From: Tepidisphaera sp.
Lineage (GTDB): Bacteria; Planctomycetota; Phycisphaerae; Phycisphaerales; UBA1924
DNA: 64,000 nucleotides
Assembly: GCA_016124375.1 (NCBI GenBank)
Contig: WGNV01000010.1
Span: 62,001-126,000 of the forward strand
Direction: 5' to 3'
Positions 7,347-46,616 of this stretch are shown piece by piece (within the stretch, counting starts at the first letter, position 1; each line of letters opens with the position of its first letter). A program made the translations under genes and the position numbers. The notes under the pieces are model-generated. The model ran no database searches. It was given only the letters and a program-made list of their open reading frames with translations, and was not told the origin of the DNA.

Positions 7347-8882
<1,536 letters not shown>

Positions 8883-20849: not shown

Positions 20850-20884
20850 GCGCCAGCTCGGAATCTACGCCCAGGCCGAAAAAG

Positions 20885-20924
20885 AGCCCGCGACGCGAAC
20901 CATTCGCGTCGCGGCTTTGTTTTT
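20885..20924 (+). terminator. Intrinsic terminator after HEAT-like gene
   Basis: CCGCGACGCGAA pairs with TTCGCGTCGCGG (12 bp, three-base loop), followed by CTTTGTTTTT. It is placed 36 bp after the stop codon. Confidence 0.92.
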
Positions 20925-21275
20925 GGCCGGGGTGGTCTTCAGGCCCGTTTGGGATTGCCGTGCCGCCGGTTGCGGCTTTCGCGCAAGGGGCCCGGCTTCT
21001 CGGACACCCTGGTTTCCATAAAAGCGTCGGTCGTTGCGTTGTGGAAACGTTGCGGCTGGGCGCTCTCGGCGCGGGCGTTACAGGCGGCGCGGGCGCCCGG
21101 CGGAGATCGTGCCGCGGCTGAACGAAGCCGGCGCGAAGGCCGATCCACTTGCACCGAATGTGCCCGCGTGTGTGGGCGTCGGCGCCTCGGGGTTCCGGAG
21201 GAGGATCCCTTGGGCAGAGCTTCGAGGCGTGGTCGCTCTCGAGTGGTCGGAATCCAATTGGAAGGAGTTGTAAGC
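20925..21275. other. Leader region of the pseudopilin cluster, no gene
   Basis: About 350 bp between the terminator and the first pseudopilin ATG. The track ORF from 20949 simply runs into the pseudopilin frame; its extension is Arg-rich and lacks a ribosome site. It presumably holds the promoter of the cluster, which I cannot pinpoint. Confidence 0.5.
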
Positions 21276-21707
21276 ATGCGCAACCGGATGAAGAAGGCCT
21301 TTACGCTCGTTGAAATTCTGATCGTGGTCGTGATCCTGGGCATCTTGGCCGCCATCGTGGTGCCCCAGTTCACCAACGCGACCGAGGATGCTCAGGCTGG
21401 TAACCTCAAGACTCAGCTCTCGAGCCTCCAGAACCAGATCGAGCTGTACAAGGCGCGTACGAACGCCTATCCCGACCTGGCCACGACCGGTTGGGACCTG
21501 CTGATCGACCCCAACGGCGACGGCAACTTCGACGACGGCTACATCAAGGAAGCCCCGAAGAACCCCGCGGCCCCCTCGGGCGTGCAGACCACCATCGGCA
21601 CCGCGCACGCGGCGACCTGCGGCTGGGTCTACGACTCGACGACCGGCAAGCTCGAGGCGACCTACTTCGATGCCTCGACCGGCAAGATCACTCCCGGCAC
21701 TCCGTGA
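21276..21707 (+). CDS. Type II secretion GspG-like pseudopilin
   Basis: 143 residues from the ATG at 21276, eight bases after GAAGGAG. The class III prepilin signal is 'RNRMKKA|FTLVEILIVVVILGILAAIVVPQF', with Glu at +5 after cleavage by the prepilin peptidase. The C-terminal half carries a GspG-like pattern ('LYKARTNAYPDLATTGWDLL', 'YIKEAPKNP', 'GWVYDSTTGKL'). GspG is the major pseudopilin of type II secretion and builds the periplasmic pseudopilus. A second GspG-like gene follows after 118 bp. The cleavage position has Ala instead of the usual Gly at -1. Confidence 0.9.
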   Translation: MRNRMKKAFTLVEILIVVVILGILAAIVVPQFTNATEDAQAGNLKTQLSSLQNQIELYKARTNAYPDLATTGWDLLIDPNGDGNFDDGYIKEAPKNPAAPSGVQTTIGTAHAATCGWVYDSTTGKLEATYFDASTGKITPGTP

Positions 21708-25139: not shown

Positions 25140-25302
25140 GGAAGAGCGAAGCGGCGAAGCGGCAAAGTGGTGTAGTAGCAAAGTGGTGTAGTGGCGAAGT
25201 GGCGGAGTGCAGCGCCAAGCACATGCTGCGCTACGATCGGGTGCTGGTGCGGATTTTTTTCCTTCACTTTGCCACTCCGCCACTTTGCCACTCTGCCACT
25301 TC
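25140..25302. repeat. Octamer (GTGGCAAA-type) inverted-repeat array, copy 1
   Basis: The left arm (25140-25209) is tandem AGCGGCGA/AGTGGCAA/AGTGGTGT units. The right arm (25253-25302) is TTTGCCAC/TCCGCCAC/TCTGCCAC units in reverse orientation. They are separated by about 43 bp of unique sequence containing the T-rich run TTTTTTTTCC. It starts four bases after the phosphatase stop codon and ends 37 bp before the SGNH hydrolase start. Confidence 0.9.
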
Positions 25303-25339: not shown

Positions 25340-26263
25340 ATGCGTTTCAAAATGCCGTTCGGGGCGTTGGTGGTCGCGATCGCCGGGTCGGCGGCGCTGG
25401 CTTCGAACTCCACGTACATCTCGCTGGGTGATTCGCTGGCCTTCGGGTTCACCACGCTCAGCGAGGGGCCGTTTCCGAACAACGGCGATCGGGGCTATGT
25501 GGGGCTGTACGCGGACTGGCTGGCGACGCAGCACGGCGGCGACCGGCCGAACGTGATCAACCTCGCGATCCCCGGCGAGTCGTCCGTGAGTTTTTTTGAC
25601 ACGACGCAGGCGTATCGGGCGGCCAACACCAACTACATCGGCGTGAACCTGAGCCAGTCGCAGCTGTTCCAGCAGACGGTGGCGGCCCAGACCGCGATGG
25701 GGCACAGCATCGACACGATCACCATTTCGATAGGCCCGGATGACTTTTTAGCGGTGGCGGACCAGCCGGACTTTTTGAACCTGCCCCCGACCCAGCAGTT
25801 GGCGATTCTGGGGCAGACGCTGGACACGCTGGCGACGAACTACGTGGCGATCGCGGCGGAGGCGAGGGCGGCGGCGCCGCTGGCGAACATCATCGTGGTG
25901 GGGGATTACAACCCGTATGCGATCCTGCCCCAAAGCCCGCTGTATCCGTTTGCGGGCGTGCTGATCGACAACATCAACCAGATCGGGCAGGCGGCGGCGG
26001 ACGGCGTGGGGGGGCGGTTTGTGGATACGAGCGCGGCGTTTGCCGGGCACGAAGCCGAGTACACGCACATTTTGGACGAGCCGTTTCCGAATGAGAACAT
26101 TCACCCGACGGCGCTGGGGTATCAGGTGATCGCGAACTTGATCATCGTGCCCGGGCCGGGGGGCGTCGGGGTGGCGGGCGCGATGGTGCTCGCCGGAATG
26201 CCGGGGGCGAGGAGGCGCAGGAGAGAAGCGGCAAAGTGGCAAAGTGGCGTAGTGGCAAAGTGA
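25340..26263 (+). CDS. Secreted SGNH/GDSL-type hydrolase with RRRR tail altered by repeat
   Basis: 307 residues from the ATG at 25340 (GGAGAGGAG ten bases upstream). A signal peptide is followed by an SGNH hydrolase: block I 'YISLGDSLAFGF' holds the nucleophile Ser, 'IAIPGESS' follows, block III is 'ISIGPDDF' (GPDD in place of GxND) and block V 'NIHPTALGYQV' has the catalytic His. The tail 'VPGPGGVGVAGAMVLAGMPGARRRRR' is PEP-CTERM-like. It is followed by ~11 extra residues ('EAAKWQSGVVAK') encoded by the octamer repeat, which also supplies the stop codon. The family comprises esterases and lipases; the substrate is unknown. Confidence 0.88.
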   Translation: MRFKMPFGALVVAIAGSAALASNSTYISLGDSLAFGFTTLSEGPFPNNGDRGYVGLYADWLATQHGGDRPNVINLAIPGESSVSFFDTTQAYRAANTNYIGVNLSQSQLFQQTVAAQTAMGHSIDTITISIGPDDFLAVADQPDFLNLPPTQQLAILGQTLDTLATNYVAIAAEARAAAPLANIIVVGDYNPYAILPQSPLYPFAGVLIDNINQIGQAAADGVGGRFVDTSAAFAGHEAEYTHILDEPFPNENIHPTALGYQVIANLIIVPGPGGVGVAGAMVLAGMPGARRRRREAAKWQSGVVAK

Positions 26264-26345
26264 AGGAAAGCTCGACAGCCATCCGCTCTCGCCCCAAGGC
26301 CGCTCGGTCACTCTGCCACTCTGCCACTCTGCCACTTTGCCATTT
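26229..26345. repeat. Octamer (GTGGCAAA-type) inverted-repeat array, copy 2
   Basis: The left arm GGCAAAGTGGCAAAGTGGCG... (26229-26263) forms the end of the SGNH gene. The right arm (26309-26345) is four TCTGCCAC/TTTGCCAT units in inverse orientation, ending eight bases from the stop of the convergent MazG-like gene. The spacer is about 45 bp. Confidence 0.9.
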
Positions 26346-26353
26346 CATCCCGC

Positions 26354-27254: not shown

Positions 27255-27298
27255 CGAGCCCGAAGCGCCAGCAAGGGTCTCAGCGACGCCCGAACTGG
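27255..27298. repeat. 40-bp dispersed repeat CGAGCCCGAAGCGCCAGC..., copy in rpsL-rpsG spacer
   Basis: The first 40 bases match the copy inside the E1-enzyme gene at 28523 at 35 of 40 positions by eye. The core CCCGAAGCGCCAGC(A/G)AGGGTCTC is one I recall as frequent in planctomycete genomes. It lies 30 bp after the rpsL stop. Confidence 0.8.
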
Positions 27299-27477: not shown

Positions 27478-27975
27478 ATGGGTGGCAAGCGTTTTACCAA
27501 TGCCGACAAGCAGCTGCGTCCGGACCCCCGCTTCGGTGATCGCACGCTGTCGCGGTTCATCAACTGCGTGATGCAGGACGGCAAGAAGGCCGTTGCCCAG
27601 CGCGTGGTGTATGACGCGTTCGAGGTGATCCAGGGCCGCCTGGCCAAGGAAACTTCGCCTGAGGCCCCCAAGGAAGCGATCGAGGTCTTCCAGCGGGCGC
27701 TCGAGAACGTCAAGCCCTTTGTGGAAGTTCGCAGCAAGCGCATCGGTGGTGCGAACTACCAGGTGCCCATGCAGGTGAACAAGAAGCGCCAGCAGAGCCT
27801 GGCGTTCCGCTGGATTCTCGAGGCGGCTCGCAGCGAGAAGGGCCGCCCGATCTCGCAGCGCCTCGCCGATGAGCTGTACAACGCCGCCCGCGGCGAAGGC
27901 AAGGCGATGGGCACCCGCGACCAGACCCACCGCATGGCCGAAGCCAACCGCGCGTTCGCCCACTTCGCGAACTGA
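27478..27975 (+). CDS. rpsG: 30S ribosomal protein S7
   Basis: 165 residues from the ATG at 27478, seven bases after AAGGAG. S7 binds the 3' domain of 16S rRNA and nucleates head assembly. Conserved stretches are '[23 protein letters not shown]', '[17 protein letters not shown]' and '[18 protein letters not shown]'. The usual downstream partners fusA and tuf are absent: a terminator follows and then a ThiF-type gene. The str operon is therefore reduced to two genes here. Confidence 0.98.
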
Positions 27976-27998: not shown

Positions 27999-28034
27999 CA
28001 CGCCTCGGCCTCTGGCCGGGGCGTGTTTGTTTTT
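27999..28034 (+). terminator. Intrinsic terminator after rpsG
   Basis: CACGCCTCGGCC pairs with GGCCGGGGCGTG (12 bp with one G-T wobble, loop TCT), followed by TTTGTTTTT. Confidence 0.93.
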
Positions 28035-28038
28035 GGGG

Positions 28039-28135
28039 AAGGCACCAGGCACTAGGCATTAGGCACTAGGGAAGAAGAAGACTGAGGTCCCGGGGCTCTT
28101 CCCTAATGCCTAGTGCCTGATGCCTAGTGCCTTTT
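28039..28135. repeat. Heptamer (GGCACTA) long inverted repeat
   Basis: The left arm (28039-28077) has GGCACCA, GGCACTA, GGCATTA, GGCACTA heptamers then GGGAAGA. The right arm (28096-28135) is the inverse with only a few mismatches over ~38 bp. The 18-base spacer leaves a long, nearly perfect hairpin between the rpsG terminator and the E1-enzyme gene. Confidence 0.9.
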
Positions 28136-28162: not shown

Positions 28163-29290
28163 ATGTCCCTCTCCCGACATCACCGCCAGACGCTGCTCCC
28201 CGGCATCGGCGATGCCGGTCAGGCGAAGCTGGCGGCTTCGCACGCCGCGATCGTCGGCGTCGGGGCGCTTGGGTGTGCTTCGGCCGAGCTCTTGTGCCGC
28301 GCGGGCGTCGGCACGCTCACGCTCATCGATCGCGACGTGGTCGATCTCACCAACCTGCAACGTCAGGTGCTGTTCGGTGTTGCGGATGTGGGCATGCCAA
28401 AGGCGGAAGCGGCGACAGCGCGGCTGCGGGCGATCGATCCCGGGGTGCGAGTGATCGCGCACGCGGCGGACCTGACGGGGGCCAACGCCGAGCGCCTGCT
28501 GGGGCTGGAACGCGGGGCGCCACGAGCCCGAAGCGCCAGCGAGGGTCTCCGCAATGTCCGAATCGCAGCCGGCACCGAAGATGTAGATTCGCCACCATCC
28601 CCGCCCGACATTTTCATCGATGGCACGGACAACTTCGAAACGCGGTACCTGCTCAACGACCTGGCCGTGAAGCACTCGCTCCCCCTCGCCTACGGCGGCG
28701 TCATCGCTACGCGGGGCATGTCGGGCACGTTTGTGCCGGGCGGGCCGTGCCTGCGCTGCGTGTTTGAAGAGCCCCCCGAACCCGGCAGCCAGCCCACCTG
28801 CGACACCGCCGGCGTGTTCGGGCCGGTCGTCGCCATCGTCGGGGCGACGCAGGCCGCCGACGCGATCAAGATTCTTTGCGGCCAGCCCCACACGCTGAGC
28901 CGCACGCTGCTCAACTTTGACATCTGGGCCAACGAAAGACGCCGCTTCCCGCTCGGCGATTCGCCCCGCCCCGATTGCCCCTGCTGCGGCTCGCGCCGCT
29001 TTGAGTTTCTTGAGCACGCCCGCGGCGATTCGCTGAGTTTGTGCGGGCAGGACGCGATCCAGGTGTCGCCCGGGCGCGACGTCACGCTCGATCTCGAATC
29101 GCTGCGCGAACGCCTCGCCCGCGTCGCCGCTTCCGCGCCCGTCGCCACGCGATTCATGGTGCGGGCACGGGTGCAAAGCGGCACAGGCGAAGTCGACATC
29201 AGCGTCTTCGCCGACGGCCGCGCGATCATCCGCGGCACCACCGACGCGAACGTCGCGAGGTCGGTGTACGCCAAGTACATCGGGGCCTAA
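28163..29290 (+). CDS. ThiF/MoeB-family E1-like adenylyltransferase with in-frame repeat insert
   Basis: 375 residues from the ATG at 28163. The nucleotide site is 'AAIVGVGALGCASAELL', followed by 'LIDRDVVDLTNLQRQVLF', the substrate-binding 'DGTDNFETRYLLND' and the CxxC pairs 'PCLRCVF' and 'CPCCGS' for structural zinc. The C-terminal ~90 residues resemble a divergent accessory domain. These enzymes adenylate the C-terminal Gly of ThiS or MoaD for sulfur transfer; which one is served here is not decidable. Between 'LLGLERG' and 'PDIFIDGTDN' about 33 residues are extra ('PRARSASEGLRNVR...'), encoded by the dispersed 40-bp repeat. Confidence 0.92.
   Translation: MSLSRHHRQTLLPGIGDAGQAKLAASHAAIVGVGALGCASAELLCRAGVGTLTLIDRDVVDLTNLQRQVLFGVADVGMPKAEAATARLRAIDPGVRVIAHAADLTGANAERLLGLERGAPRARSASEGLRNVRIAAGTEDVDSPPSPPDIFIDGTDNFETRYLLNDLAVKHSLPLAYGGVIATRGMSGTFVPGGPCLRCVFEEPPEPGSQPTCDTAGVFGPVVAIVGATQAADAIKILCGQPHTLSRTLLNFDIWANERRRFPLGDSPRPDCPCCGSRRFEFLEHARGDSLSLCGQDAIQVSPGRDVTLDLESLRERLARVAASAPVATRFMVRARVQSGTGEVDISVFADGRAIIRGTTDANVARSVYAKYIGA
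28523..28562. repeat. 40-bp dispersed repeat inside the E1-enzyme gene
   Basis: Second copy of CGAGCCCGAAGCGCCAGC(A/G)AGGGTCTC, in frame within the E1 gene and encoding 'RARSASEGLRNVR'. It matches the copy in the rpsL-rpsG spacer at 35 of 40 bases. Confidence 0.85.
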
Positions 29291-29953: not shown

Positions 29954-31819
29954 ATGCCGGTGGCGACGGATCGCACCCAACCCGTGCCCGACCTGATCAA
30001 CACTAGCGCCGCCGCTGCGCCCGGCGCGGGGGGACAGGCTCGCGGGCGAGCGAGCGATGCCGCCGGTGTGCGCGGGATGACTAAAGTGTGGCGACTGCGC
30101 GGGGCGATGAGCGCCGCCGGAGCGCCGCTGGTGCAGCGAGTGCTGATCGCCCGGGGCCTCACCGACCCGGCGACTTCGGAAAAGTTCCTCGACCCCAAGC
30201 TCACGCACCTGCACGATCCCTCGGGCATTCCCGACCTGGACAAGGCGGCGGAGCGGTTGCTGCGAGCGGCTCGCGCGGGCGAACGCATCGTCATCTACGG
30301 CGATTACGACGTCGATGGCGTGAGCGCGACCGCGATCCTCTTCCACATGCTGCGCGAAATCGTGCCGGGCGTGAAACTCGGCACCTACGTGCCCCATCGC
30401 ATCGACGAGGGGTACGGGTTGAACGTGGAGGCGGTGCGCGAACTGGCCCGCGAGGGGGCACGGGTGATCGTCAGCGTCGATTGCGGCATCACCGCGATCG
30501 CGCCCGCCCAAGCCGCACGCGAGGCGGGCGTGGACCTCATCATCACGGATCATCACAACCCGCCCGCGTCGGTGGCCGAACTGCCCGACGCTTTCGCCGT
30601 GGTGCACCCGCGCCGGCCGGATTCGGCGTATCCCTTCGGCGAACTCTGCGGCGCGGGGGTGGCGTTCAAACTCGCGTGGCGCTTGGCGACCCTTGCGAGT
30701 GGGGGCAGCAAGGTATCGGAAGCGATGCGGGGGCTGCTGATCGAGTTGCTCGGGCTGACGTCGCTGGGGGTGATTGCGGATGTGGTGCCGCTGGTGGATG
30801 AAAATCGTGTGATCGCGAAGTTCGGGCTCGGGCGGATCAAGGATTCACGGATCGAGGGGCTGCGGGCGCTGGTGCGGGCGTCTCGCCTGGACAGCGACAA
30901 GGTGAGCGCCGAGGACGTGGGGTTCAAGATCGGTCCGCGACTGAACGCGTGCGGGCGCATGGGGCATGCGCGCGAGGCGGTGGAGTTGCTGACGGTGGCG
31001 AGCGGGGCGCGGGCGAACGAGATCGCCACGCAGTTGTCGCGCATGAATGATGAACGGCGCGACGAGGAGCGGCGGATCTTTGAGCACGCACTGGAGATGG
31101 CGCAATCCCAGGGCATGACCGGAACCCAGTCGCGGGCCATCGTCTTGGCGCACGAGGGGTGGCACAGCGGGGTCGTGGGCATCGTGTGCTCGCGCCTGGT
31201 GGAGCGGTTCAATCGCCCGACGATCCTGCTCTCGAGCGCGGCCGAGGGGCTGCACGGGTCGGGGCGGTCGATTGAGGGATTCAGTCTGCACGCGGCGCTG
31301 GTGGAGTGTGCGCCGTTGCTCACGACCTTTGGCGGGCACGACATGGCCGCGGGGATGAAGCTGGCGCATGCGCAGTTTGCCGCATTCGTGCAGGGCTTCA
31401 CCCAGGTCGCGAACCGAGAGATCAGCCCCGAGCAACTGGTGGGTGCAGCGAAGTACGACTGCGGCGCGAGCCTGCACGAACTCGATCTCACGACGGTGCG
31501 TCAGTTGGCACGGCTCGGGCCCTTCGGGGCCGGTAACCCGGGGGTGCGCGTGCGGCTGGCGCCGGTGCGGGTGGCGGCCAGGCCGGAGATCTTCGGGCAG
31601 ACGGGCAAGCACCTATCGCTGCGGGTGGCGGATGAGCGCGGCGGGCGCGGGCTGAGGCTGATCGGCTGGAACTGGGCGAGCCGCATCGCCGAGATTCCTG
31701 CGGGCGCGACGATCGAGGCGATCGTGACGCCGACGATCTCGACGTTCGGCTCGCCCAGCGTCGAGCCGGTGATCGACGACATTCGCATCGTCGATGCGCC
31801 TTCCGGCCCCGGCGCCTAG
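29954..31819 (+). CDS. recJ: Single-stranded-DNA-specific exonuclease RecJ
   Basis: 621 residues from the ATG at 29954; the conserved N-terminus begins near 'MTKVWRLRG' (ATG 30077), so the shorter start is possible, and neither has a clear ribosome site. DHH-family motifs: 'YGDYDVDGVSATAI' (metal-binding Asp residues), 'VDCGITA' and 'ITDHHNPP' (the DHH triad). The DHHA1 domain has 'HEGWHSGVVGIV' and 'GGHDMAAGMKL', followed by a C-terminal OB region. RecJ degrades ssDNA 5'-3' in recombination and mismatch repair. Confidence 0.95.
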   Translation: MPVATDRTQPVPDLINTSAAAAPGAGGQARGRASDAAGVRGMTKVWRLRGAMSAAGAPLVQRVLIARGLTDPATSEKFLDPKLTHLHDPSGIPDLDKAAERLLRAARAGERIVIYGDYDVDGVSATAILFHMLREIVPGVKLGTYVPHRIDEGYGLNVEAVRELAREGARVIVSVDCGITAIAPAQAAREAGVDLIITDHHNPPASVAELPDAFAVVHPRRPDSAYPFGELCGAGVAFKLAWRLATLASGGSKVSEAMRGLLIELLGLTSLGVIADVVPLVDENRVIAKFGLGRIKDSRIEGLRALVRASRLDSDKVSAEDVGFKIGPRLNACGRMGHAREAVELLTVASGARANEIATQLSRMNDERRDEERRIFEHALEMAQSQGMTGTQSRAIVLAHEGWHSGVVGIVCSRLVERFNRPTILLSSAAEGLHGSGRSIEGFSLHAALVECAPLLTTFGGHDMAAGMKLAHAQFAAFVQGFTQVANREISPEQLVGAAKYDCGASLHELDLTTVRQLARLGPFGAGNPGVRVRLAPVRVAARPEIFGQTGKHLSLRVADERGGRGLRLIGWNWASRIAEIPAGATIEAIVTPTISTFGSPSVEPVIDDIRIVDAPSGPGA

Positions 31820-31854
31820 TGCCCGGTACGCGGTGCCTTCTCTCCAAAAACGCA

Positions 31855-38263: not shown

Positions 38264-38372
38264 AAATGGCAGAGTGGCAAAGTGGCGGAGTGGCAAAGTG
38301 AAAAACCGCGACGCTTCAGCGTCGCGGCTTCTTTATTCGGTCTCTCGACCACTCGACCACTTCGCCACTTCC
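38264..38372. repeat. Octamer (GTGGCAAA-type) inverted-repeat array, copy 3, around a terminator
   Basis: The left arm (38264-38300) is AGTGGCAA/AGTGGCGG units starting 14 bases after the stop of the upstream gene. The right arm (38346-38372) is ACTCGACC/ACTTCGCC units ending three bases from the stop of the convergent phosphoesterase gene. Between the arms lies a perfect intrinsic terminator. Confidence 0.88.
38301..38335. terminator. Bidirectional terminator inside the octamer array
   Basis: AAAAACCGCGACGCT-TC-AGCGTCGCGG-CTTCTTTATT: a ten-base perfect stem, A-run on the left and T-rich on the right, so it could serve both convergent genes. Confidence 0.88.
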
Positions 38373-43325: not shown

Positions 43326-43340
43326 GGATCTTATTTCCGG

Positions 43341-43360
43341 CCCTAGTGCCTAGTGCCTAT
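43341..43360. repeat. GGCACTA-type heptamer fragment
   Basis: CCTAGTGCCTAGTGCCTAT: a short one-armed copy of the heptamer family seen at 28039-28135, placed ten bases from the stop of the large dockerin gene on the minus strand. Confidence 0.7.
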
Positions 43361-43370
43361 TTCCTCACTC

Positions 43371-46300
43371 TTACGGGCACTGGCCGCTGGCGATGGTGTT
43401 GATGAGGGCGTCAACGTCACCCTGATCGCCCACGCCGTCGTGGTTGAAGTCGGGGTCGATGCCGCTGGGGTTTTCGCCGCCCGCGATGACGTTGATGAGG
43501 TAGTCCACGTCGCCCTGGTCGGCGACGCCGTCCTGGTTGACGTCGGGATCGCAGGCCGGGGAGCCGACGACGCCGGAGAGGTTGAGGTTGCTGATGGCCC
43601 ACCAGCCGGAGTTGGAGTCATTGAAGCGCAGGCGAGCGGTCTGAGCGCCGGCGGGGTTGTTGAGGTAGACGGTGACGGTCTCGTTGCCGGTGGTGACCTT
43701 GTTGCCGGGGTTCCATGCGAGGACAGGGGTCCAGGTGGTGCCGTTGTCGTAGGAAACATCGACGCTGCTCATGTGGTTGGCCCCGGTGCCCCAGCTGGAG
43801 TCGAAGGTGAGAACGAGGGTGCCCTCGTTGACGCCGGCGACGCCGTAGGCGGTGGTGCGGAGGTGACCGGTGCCGGGGCAGCCGCGCTGATCGAAGTCGG
43901 AGACGAAGGCGGTGTTGGGGAGGAAGTCAAAGCGTGCGCCGCCGCCGGAGCGAGCCCAGGCGTTGGTGACCCAGGCGCTCCAGCCTTCGAAGTCGCCGCC
44001 GCTGGTGGGGCAGGGGCCAAGGTCGGCGTTGTTGTTGGTGAAGGAGCCTGGCTGAGCCTCTGGGGCCGAGTAGTAGTTGCAGGCCGCGACCGGCGGCACG
44101 TCATCCAGCGGGGTGGGCTGCGGGTTGGGCACGCCTTCGAAGTTCTCGGTGAGGGTCTGCGTGCCGTTGGAGGTGAAGGACATGTTGTCCAGGGCCCACC
44201 ACCAGTCGTTGCGGGCGTTGGTGAGGCTGAACTCGAACTTGACGGCGGTCGCGCCGCTGGGGATGTGAAGGGCGGTCTTGTCGAGGTTGATCGTGTCGTT
44301 CTCGTGGATGTGGTCTTCGTAGTAGTACTGGCTGGTGGGGTCGGAATCCCAGTGGATGAGTTCGACGCCCGGCTGGTCAACGCCGCCGACGGTGTAGATG
44401 GCCTTGACGATGGCGGTCTGGTTGTTGGTGTGGGTGCGGCCCGCAGTGCCGGTGGTACCGGGGGCCGACAACGTGGTGCCGATATCGATCGAGAAGCTGT
44501 TGGCCGAGACGCTGGTGATGTTGTACGCACCGTCGATCGGGGGAACACTGTCGGAGCCGCCGATGACGACGAGCGCGCCATCCGGGAAGCCGGAGGGCGA
44601 ATCGGTGGTGATCAGCACGCGGGTGGTGCTGGGGATCTGAGCGATGCTGGTGATGCCGACGCTGACGTCGCAGGAGCAGCGGTCATCGAGACCTTCGGGG
44701 CGCCAGCTGGAATCGAACTGGAGGTTGGCGCTGTTGACGGCCGCGGGCAGAGGCTGGGCGGGCGTCGTGAGGAAGGCGTTGAAGTTGCTCTGGCCGTTGG
44801 GCGAGTCATCCCAGGCGTCCGGGTCGGCAACCGCGACGAAGCCGCGCGCCTTGGTGAAGTTGGAGCGCTCCTGATCGCCCTGCTCCTGGATCCACCAGCC
44901 CTTATCGAGGAAGGTGAACCCGCGGAACGCGGTGCGGCCGCACTCCTGCGGGCAGGCGCCGATGGGCGTGAAGATGTCGGTCCAGCCATCCGGGGCATAG
45001 GGCGACCAGGGGGTGAAGCAGGCGGCGTAGTCGATGCTTGGGGCCACGGCCATCACCGCGGTGGTGGGGGCGTAGTTCAGCAGGTTGAGGGTGGTCTCAC
45101 CCTGGATGAGGGCGATGTTGTCCAAGGCCCACCACCAGTTGTTGCCGCCAACGTAGCGGAAGCGGAACTGCACGTGGCTGGAGCCTTCCGGCACGATGAA
45201 GGGGACAGCATCGCGCTCGTTGGGAGCGTCGTTCTTGAAGAACTGGCTGGCCTGGTCGGATTCCCAGCGGAGGACTTCGAGGGTGGTGTTGTTGGGGTCG
45301 TCGAAGGTAGCTTCGATGGTGGCGGTCTGGCCGGATTCCCAGCGCCAGCTGCTGTCGAAGGTGAGGACCATCAGGCCGCCGTTGCGGCCCGAGATGTCGA
45401 TCTGCGGGGTGCGCATGCTGGTGTCGAGGTCGCCGGGCTCGTGCGTCGCGTCATCGAACTCATCGCCATCGGCGACGGCGATGTTGCCGGAGCTGTTGAA
45501 GAAGAGGGCGCCGTTGTTGGTGCCCATGTCGTTGTTGGCGGCGCAGTACCAGTACTCGCGCGTGGTGAACGACCAGCCGCGCCACTCGGGCACGCCGCCC
45601 GAGGCGGGGCTGTCGACGGCGACGGTCATGGGCCCGTAGGGGGCGTTGGCGCCGCCGGTGTGGGTGAAGACGTTCTGGCCGCAGTACGAGAGGCGGCAGC
45701 CCTGGGGCGCGGCGTCGATCGGGGGCTCGAGGGTCACGCCTTCAAAGTCTTCGGTGTAGCGGGTGATGTTGTTGCCGCCCTGGCTGGCAGTGGCCGCGAG
45801 GTTATCGATGGCCCACCACCAGTCGTTGCCGGCGTTGGTCAAACCGAACTCGAAGCGGACGGAAGTGGCGCCGGCGGGGACGTTGAGCACGCTGTTGTCG
45901 AGGACGATGGTGTCGTTCTCGTGGATGTGGTCGGCGTAGAAGAAGGGCCCGTTGGGGTTGGAGTCCCAGTGCAGGACCTCGACGCCGGGCTGTTCGGTGC
46001 CGCCGACGGTGTAGAAGGCGCGGATGGTGGCGGTCTGGTTGTTCGTTCCGGGGCCGTCATCAAAGCCCTCGGGGCGCCAGCTGGAGTCGAAGGAGAAGGC
46101 GAAGGAACCGGCGTCGATGCCGGTGAGATCGATGGCGGGCGTCTTCATGAAGGCGTTCATGTAGCCGCAGAACTGAGCGCCGCTGGCGGGGCCGCCGCGA
46201 TCGTCCCAGGCGTCGGGATCGGCGACGGCGACATTGCCAATGCCCTTGGTGAAGTTGGAGCGCTCCTGATCGCCCTGCTCGCCGATCCACCAGTTCTTGT

Positions 46301-46616
46301 CGACGAAGGACCAGCCTTCGAACTCACGGAAGCCCTTGTTGGCGCAGGAGGTGCAGACCTGCTGGATGTTGCAGATGCTGGGGTTGGCGCAGGAGAATGT
46401 CTTGGTCTGGCAGTCATTCCACTCCCAGCCCGGGGGCGGGGTGTGGGTGAAGACGGGCGTGGGCGCCACGCACGTATTCGCGACCCAGGTGTCTTGGGGC
46501 TGCTGATCGAGCACGGCGCTGTCGAAGTTCTCGCTGTAGAACACGGTCTGGGCGTTGACCGACGAGCCCGCGGCCATGGCGAGCAGCCCGGCGGCTTTCA
46601 AAAATCCATAACGCAT
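43371..46616 (-). CDS. Giant modular secreted protein with dockerin-like C-terminus
   Basis: 1081 residues from the ATG at 46616 (AGGAGG five bases upstream; GTG 46619 is the alternative). After a signal peptide there are four related beta-rich modules of ~230-250 residues. They share 'GWSFVDKNWWIGEQGDQERSN', 'VAVADPDAWDD', 'FDSSWR.E' and 'WWWALDN', and look like MAM or carbohydrate-binding jelly rolls. The third module holds an extra ~84-residue insert ('VLITTDSPSGFPDGALVVIGG', 'YNITSVSANSFSI') resembling an E1_FCCH-type module. The end is a dockerin-like pair ('DVNQDGVADQGDVDYL', 'DFNHDGVGDQGDVDAL'). Function unknown; adhesion or polysaccharide binding is an inference. Confidence 0.9.
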   Translation of the reverse strand: MRYGFLKAAGLLAMAAGSSVNAQTVFYSENFDSAVLDQQPQDTWVANTCVAPTPVFTHTPPPGWEWNDCQTKTFSCANPSICNIQQVCTSCANKGFREFEGWSFVDKNWWIGEQGDQERSNFTKGIGNVAVADPDAWDDRGGPASGAQFCGYMNAFMKTPAIDLTGIDAGSFAFSFDSSWRPEGFDDGPGTNNQTATIRAFYTVGGTEQPGVEVLHWDSNPNGPFFYADHIHENDTIVLDNSVLNVPAGATSVRFEFGLTNAGNDWWWAIDNLAATASQGGNNITRYTEDFEGVTLEPPIDAAPQGCRLSYCGQNVFTHTGGANAPYGPMTVAVDSPASGGVPEWRGWSFTTREYWYCAANNDMGTNNGALFFNSSGNIAVADGDEFDDATHEPGDLDTSMRTPQIDISGRNGGLMVLTFDSSWRWESGQTATIEATFDDPNNTTLEVLRWESDQASQFFKNDAPNERDAVPFIVPEGSSHVQFRFRYVGGNNWWWALDNIALIQGETTLNLLNYAPTTAVMAVAPSIDYAACFTPWSPYAPDGWTDIFTPIGACPQECGRTAFRGFTFLDKGWWIQEQGDQERSNFTKARGFVAVADPDAWDDSPNGQSNFNAFLTTPAQPLPAAVNSANLQFDSSWRPEGLDDRCSCDVSVGITSIAQIPSTTRVLITTDSPSGFPDGALVVIGGSDSVPPIDGAYNITSVSANSFSIDIGTTLSAPGTTGTAGRTHTNNQTAIVKAIYTVGGVDQPGVELIHWDSDPTSQYYYEDHIHENDTINLDKTALHIPSGATAVKFEFSLTNARNDWWWALDNMSFTSNGTQTLTENFEGVPNPQPTPLDDVPPVAACNYYSAPEAQPGSFTNNNADLGPCPTSGGDFEGWSAWVTNAWARSGGGARFDFLPNTAFVSDFDQRGCPGTGHLRTTAYGVAGVNEGTLVLTFDSSWGTGANHMSSVDVSYDNGTTWTPVLAWNPGNKVTTGNETVTVYLNNPAGAQTARLRFNDSNSGWWAISNLNLSGVVGSPACDPDVNQDGVADQGDVDYLINVIAGGENPSGIDPDFNHDGVGDQGDVDALINTIASGQCP

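Follow-up and report, generated by a model that had tools for sequence, protein, structure and literature searches.

What kind of element is the long inverted repeat of GGCACTA-like heptamers that separates rpsG from a ThiF/MoeB-family gene in the 64,000-nt stretch of Tepidisphaera sp. DNA analyzed here (hereafter, the window)? Array parsing resolved two 37-nt arms that are 86% complementary, the left one (28039–28075, plus strand) reading GGCACCA GGCACTA GGCATTA GGCACTA GGGAAGA and the right one (28097–28133, read on the minus strand) reading GGCACTA GGCATCA GGCACTA GGCATTA GGGAAGA, and an arm search placed between them a 21-nt loop (28076–28096) that holds no gene. Folded as RNA, the hairpin at 28039–28135 reaches -62.4 kcal/mol, compared to -34.0 kcal/mol for shuffled sequences (z = -8.1), showing that the repeat described in an earlier note, with arms of ~38 bp, is real. 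Its position after the rpsG terminator was also correct: rpsG (27478–27975, plus strand; PF00177, E=2.7e-55) is followed by an intrinsic-terminator-like stem-loop and a T-run (27999–28025, plus strand; terminator check), and the hairpin lies 3' of this site and 5' of the ThiF/MoeB-family gene (28163–29290, plus strand; PF00899, E=4.4e-70). A search of the 64-kb window against Rfam matched no family.

Several other arrays are present in the window. The one-armed relative that had been reported near 43341, at the stop side of a large gene, was recovered by array parsing and gene calls at 43339–43366 (minus strand; GGAAATA GGCACTA GGCACTA GGGCCGG), 6 nt past the stop codon of gene 43371–46601 (minus strand), and a degenerate one-armed array of the GGCACTA family was found at 31805–31837 (minus strand) in the gene-distance analysis. 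A two-armed GGGACTG element (7938–7965, plus strand; 8001–8036, minus strand) had been taken for an intergenic CCCCAGT hairpin (7938–8036); array parsing and an in-frame check place it inside asnS, the asparagine-tRNA ligase gene (7347–8882, plus strand; PF00152), as an in-frame insertion at residues ~197–231 (gap 196–232 in the alignment to PDB 6pqh). Octamers (AGTGGCRN) form a parsed hairpin with arms at 25149–25206 (plus strand) and 25260–25301 (minus strand), a one-armed array at 38265–38304 (plus strand), 15 nt past a stop codon, and a second hairpin, identified by arm search and gene calls, with arms at 26225–26263 (plus strand) and 26308–26346 (minus strand). The right arm of the latter lies 9 nt past the stop of a MazG-like gene, and its left arm overlaps the end of a GDSL-lipase ORF (25340–26263), the C-terminal codons and stop codon of which (in AGTGA) apparently come from the octamer array.

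To place these arrays in context, we compared the genome of the window (G000; 3.1 Mb of sequence, 76% complete) with six congeners (G001–G006), i.e., seven genus genomes in total; L-numbers denote sampled stretches or loci and C-numbers contigs. The units are dispersed throughout G000, with 49 matches to a degenerate GGCACTA triplet and 38 to a GGGACTG triplet (0 for each reversed control), and 94 to an octamer triplet (6 for the reversed control). From about 0.96 Mb of sampled sequence we parsed 95 heptamer/octamer arrays of at least three units; the stretches were chosen around known arrays and are biased to array sites in G000, so that array densities in this genome are not unbiased. GGCACTA and GGGACTG (= CCCCAGT) units occur together inside single arrays, and we therefore treat as one family (GGSAYYD) what had been reported as two, whereas the AGTGGCRN octamers and the GGCATTC heptamers (with recurring GTGATTC) are separate families. 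Of the 50 GGSAYYD arrays, 46 have four heptamers, to which some add a fifth, tail-like unit. A mixed array of ~300 nt fills one intergenic gap in G002 (L294 10539–10846), running from about 11 GGCATTC units into GTGGTGGA octamers, i.e., unit switching and expansion within one gap.

The arrays follow simple rules of position and orientation. They point away from the nearest gene, at a median distance of 9 nt on the 5' side vs 108 nt on the 3' side, with start codons being approximate because gene calls rest on a small, purpose-written gene model. Arrays adjoin stop codons, with GGSAYYD arrays mostly beginning 2–7 nt after them, and also -10-like sites, and at several loci terminators lie between the arms. 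Arm symmetry is found well beyond this locus: among the 95 arrays there are 22 facing pairs vs no back-to-back pairs, and 19 of the 22 facing pairs join arrays of the same family, compared to nine expected (a count reached in none of 20,000 random draws). Thus, the proposal of a common architecture with differing units stands with regard to the architecture, except that GGCACTA and CCCCAGT are not separate. A de novo search for long facing pairs returned five, two of which carry an IVP motif (see below); the facing pair at L068, with a 761-nt spacer, encloses an ordinary ORF that is not an IVP. In G000, genes with an upstream array (L055 7487, L040 3889, L073 9800) often have a -10-like TACNNT or TAGACT 6–8 nt before the ATG, suggesting, from the sequence, that their transcripts may be leaderless.

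Comparisons with relatives indicate that the arrays are insertions, because the rpsG–ThiF gap of congener G002 has no array and in-frame copies lie within asnS, valS, thrS, dnaE, purL, and carB. In-frame arrays were also found in dus and in a radical-SAM gene (menaquinone-pathway type by eye; apart from asnS, host genes were named by reading their proteins), and thrS, dnaE, and purL have 77–94% matches in relatives. Essential genes, including dnaE and several tRNA synthetases, thus carry in-frame copies. At two orthologous gene boundaries (L040/L265, L066/L294), a GGCATTC array in G002 stands opposite a GGGACTG array in G000. Two sites in dnaE carry arrays in G000 as well as in G003, the units differing between the two genomes, and a third is occupied in G003 only, by an octamer-armed insert encoding a PF05635 protein; the dnaE frame of G003 is open across this insert, part of the locus being masked as N. 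Over this insert (L325; G003 C8, about 20850–21350), two reading frames, dnaE and IVP, are thus open at once. No target-site duplication was evident in the rpsG and dnaE comparisons, in which the comparators are diverged.

The gene linked to these arms belongs to the S23/IVP family (PF05635, 23S_rRNA_IVP), a four-helix protein for which, to our knowledge, no function has been described. A profile search matched PF05635 in five of the seven genus genomes, nearly all matches lying between inverted tandem arms; G001 and G005 had neither a PF05635 match nor GGCACTA arrays. Arms flank 15 of 16 IVP loci in the genus, 14 of 24 in a random Planctomycetota sample that was not picked for arrays, and 23 of 26 in other genomes, a set drawn from genomes picked for GGCACTA arrays and including two duplicates of G003 loci (G136 = G003 = D1_Bin_30, Phycisphaerales). 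Among 167 control genes, only five had flanks reaching the complementarity cut-off (a score of at least 27) and none showed a 7/8-nt period, whereas the arms of IVP loci mostly have a period of 7 or 8 (Fisher p 1e-11 to 1e-22 for IVP loci vs control genes). IVP loci with inverted 7–8-mer arms occur in Planctomycetota, Bacteroidota, Gemmatimonadota, Cyanobacteriota, and other groups, and the class is therefore not particular to planctomycetes and wider than the earlier note proposed. On named plasmids (Nostoc, Calothrix, Anabaena, Geminocystis, Pseudanabaena, and others, and Gemmatirosa), 10 of 12 IVPs exceed shuffled flanks, and several of their arms are plain heptamers (e.g., TAGGGAG, TAGGGTG, AGGGAAC).

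The association is not complete in either direction. Arms were undetected at 10 of the 24 Planctomycetota IVP loci, an IVP was undetected in six of 19 array-bearing genomes, and G006 has IVPs and no GGCACTA arrays. The three IVPs of G000 have GGCATTC, GAAGTTCC/GAAGAGAC, and AAATTGCT arms, and the search of this 76% complete genome yielded no GGCACTA-armed IVP; the IVP between groES and groEL of G003 has arms of the GGCACTA family, which is the unit family of the hairpin at 28039. The IVP beside dcd in G000 (L317; C8:185908–186222) carries a TGA in frame and is apparently a pseudogene, whereas its orthologs in G003 and G002 are open. A search of phages gave no IVP match, and 14 IVP loci, mostly arm-poor, had no rRNA match. 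On cyanobacterial plasmids, IVP elements lie between CRISPR genes (cas6–cas4 twice, cas10–cmr3; L409, L412, L413), a placement that could account for the IVP label in a list of genes linked to CRISPR (PMC10910872). The best PDB match of the IVP is XCC0516 of X. campestris (PDB 2gsc, E=2e-27), whose four-helix bundles assemble into a pentamer (PMC4990558). PF05635 is also similar to Avd, an accessory protein of diversity-generating retroelements (PMC10053308).

The same host sites hold different occupants in different genomes. Between groES and groEL, three genomes have an IVP, its arms being GGCACCA/GGCACTA in G003, of the GGCACCGG type in DLM2.Bin69, and AAGCAATAAGCCTT in a Flavobacterium; G002 and G004 have gene-less 9-mer hairpins, G006 a gene-less 8-mer hairpin, and G001 a gap of ~33 nt with no array. 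The accB–accC site contains an IVP in G000 and G004 and a gene-less GGCACTA hairpin in a relative (L100), and the iscS–iscU site an IVP in G000, G002, and G003 and a one-armed GGCACTA/GGCATCA array in DLM2.Bin74 (L190). Same-site IVPs are orthologs (68% identity at accBC, 60–75% at iscSU, 67–86% at dcd among G000, G002, and G003). Arms match within an element (median score 46.5) and often not across species at the same site (at accBC, scores of 20 and 25 across species vs 86 and 64 within the element), which implies that both arms change together. The dnaE, groES–groEL, accB–accC, and iscS–iscU sites of relatives keep the architecture and swap the unit; judged from these sequences, the pattern fits one element class with a changeable unit.

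Membership of the repeat at 28039–28135 in this class of hairpin elements is well supported, and the repeat is probably a gene-less copy, with the rpsG terminator on one side of its insertion site and the start region of the ThiF-family gene on the other. Elements of this class have two inverted arms around a loop, each arm repeating a 7–9-nt unit in tandem a few times, often about four. The loop encodes an S23/IVP-type four-helix-bundle protein (PF05635) in long forms and spans 9–135 nt in short forms such as the one at 28039. Copies settle in gaps between genes and, in frame, at tolerant loops within genes, and may spread as a unit. Slippage could alter the unit within an arm and spread the variant along it, and hairpin-templated correction during replication could copy the change to the other arm; on the simplest reading, element integrity would then depend on hairpin pairing and not on sequence. 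An RNA-binding role of the IVP protein at the arms is plausible, and it may act on the hairpin, perhaps as RNA with trimming by RNase III, by analogy with rRNA intervening sequences. Two points are unaccounted for by this model: the one-armed copies and the tight spacing of 3–7 nt after stop codons.

Both of these points would be more natural if the arrays came first, i.e., if slippage-prone heptamer and octamer arrays grew at gene boundaries and IVP genes landed in or between them as preferred sites, a scheme that also accommodates the majority of arrays without an IVP. We nevertheless regard this order of events as unlikely, since growth from a boundary would hardly place two-armed units in frame within conserved genes, arms pair with others of their own family, and IVP arms at a fixed site change together. 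The agreement of families within pairs likewise weighs against functional 3'-end or promoter-side elements, selected gene by gene for termination or mRNA stability, with two arms contributed by two neighboring genes. The contact of arrays with stop codons and -10-like sites and the terminators between arms would suit such a function, but presence within the genus is patchy, many orthologous sites are empty, and arrays also occur within genes, making this explanation very improbable; coincidence at gene boundaries as the source of two arms was rejected, with 19 of 22 facing pairs being of the same family vs nine expected.

An origin in G-quadruplex formation, with four units providing four G-tracts as proposed for GGGAATC (Xanthomonas) and GGGGAYT (Nostoc), would account for the four-unit preference, the position and orientation rule, and the inverted pairs, all as in PMC4692102. 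Only 12 of the 95 arrays fit a G4 pattern, none of them a GGCATTC or octamer array, and units in other hosts lack G-tracts (e.g., AAATTGCT, GTCATTG). Because the four-unit form persists in 24 arrays that have GGG in no more than one unit, G4 was rejected as the cause of the four-unit form, and we give this origin hardly any weight. Equally remote is the movement of REP/REPIN-like repeats by a RAYT (Y1) transposase, despite the dispersed intergenic inverted pairs with short spacers and the presence of RAYT genes in G000: the palindromes beside two RAYTs are of other kinds, no RAYT has heptamer/octamer arrays at its flanks, RAYT is strong in array-poor G005, and array-rich G003 has only weak Y1 matches. 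The transposase link that had been suggested is thus not supported, and a RAYT/REPIN origin was rejected, because RAYTs neither are flanked by the arrays nor track them and have different repeats of their own. The reverse transcriptase suggested as another link fared no better, and the retroelement reading was rejected: a profile search that detected its controls found RVT_1 in none of the seven genus genomes (71–96% complete). No mobility enzyme for the element was found among these candidates.

The repeats that do accompany RAYTs are of other kinds. Another dispersed repeat, TACGAGCCCGAAGCGCSAGCGAGGGTCTC, has 28 copies across the sampled stretches, including 27255–27277 and 28523–28545 in the window (one copy lies within the ThiF gene) and L082 2221, 2820, and 2887. 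It is probably the REP of the RAYT-like Y1 transposase at C8:2463, because three copies flank that gene. Beside the second RAYT (C1:116479), on either side, lie copies of a different palindrome, GGTTGCCAGGGGTGGC...GCCACCCCTGGCAACC (L080 10360–10389 and 10977–10997). A further Y1_Tnp match (G000 C4:472006–472233) lies within a 1307-aa open frame, with similar long frames in G002, G003, and G004.

Set against known systems, the hairpin insertion element resembles REP/BIME/REPIN sequences with RAYT in its short, dispersed, inverted intergenic repeats, but each of its arms is a tandem array whose unit can change, and no RAYT is linked to it or tracks it. Like MITEs, non-autonomous short inverted-repeat copies stand beside longer gene-bearing ones; unlike MITEs, there is no transposase, no target duplication was seen against the diverged comparators, and the arms are not conserved between copies. 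The TAACTGA direct repeats of Beggiatoaceae (PMC4679880) and the cyanobacterial STRR heptamers share intergenic heptamer arrays and a puzzling cross-phylum distribution, whereas most TAACTGA repeats are located 5' of start codons and the abstract mentions no IVP link. The rRNA intervening sequences (IVS) with an S23/IVP ORF in Leptospira, Coxiella, and Salmonella (PMC4990558) are similar in having complementary ends that form a long stem, as at 28039–28135, an S23/IVP four-helix ORF in long forms (found in the class, absent from the 28039 copy), forms with and without the gene, and a sporadic distribution. However, the arms here are tandem 7–9-mers, and the location is not 16S/23S rRNA: the 28039 copy lies between rpsG and the ThiF-family gene, and the class occurs in mRNA genes and between genes. 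The element class is therefore filed as IVS-like, not as IVS.

The heptamer repeats of Xanthomonas and Nostoc (GGGAATC/GGGGAYT; Rehm et al., PMC4692102) share with ours the intergenic heptamers, the four-unit mode, the facing pairs, the orientation away from the nearest gene, and the location, which is close to stop codons for sense-strand arrays and upstream of genes for antisense-strand arrays. In addition, groES and dnaE are among the repeat-associated genes listed in that paper, and a Xanthomonas protein, XCC0516 of X. campestris, is the best PDB match of the IVP. They differ in that our units are mostly without GGG (A-type arrays, including both arms at 28039, lack four GGG tracts), in the several unit families per genome, and in the explicit IVP link. 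Titles, abstracts, and searched passages of freely available papers matching the names of the protein family yielded no link between the PF05635 family and tandem-repeat arms, and the novelty of the IVP–arm link is not certain. Heptamer repeats have been reported from bacteria for decades, and we know of no explanation of their origin. It is an evenly balanced proposition that a multi-phylum hairpin class, with S23/IVP in its long forms, inserting into operons and in frame into genes, and keeping its arms complementary through changes of unit, is the shared origin of the heptanucleotide repeats of cyanobacteria, Xanthomonas, and other bacteria, moving without a known transposase or reverse transcriptase. 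Tying heptamer repeats and the S23/IVP protein together across several phyla points to where the repeats may come from and to what the protein may act on, the arms of its own hairpin.
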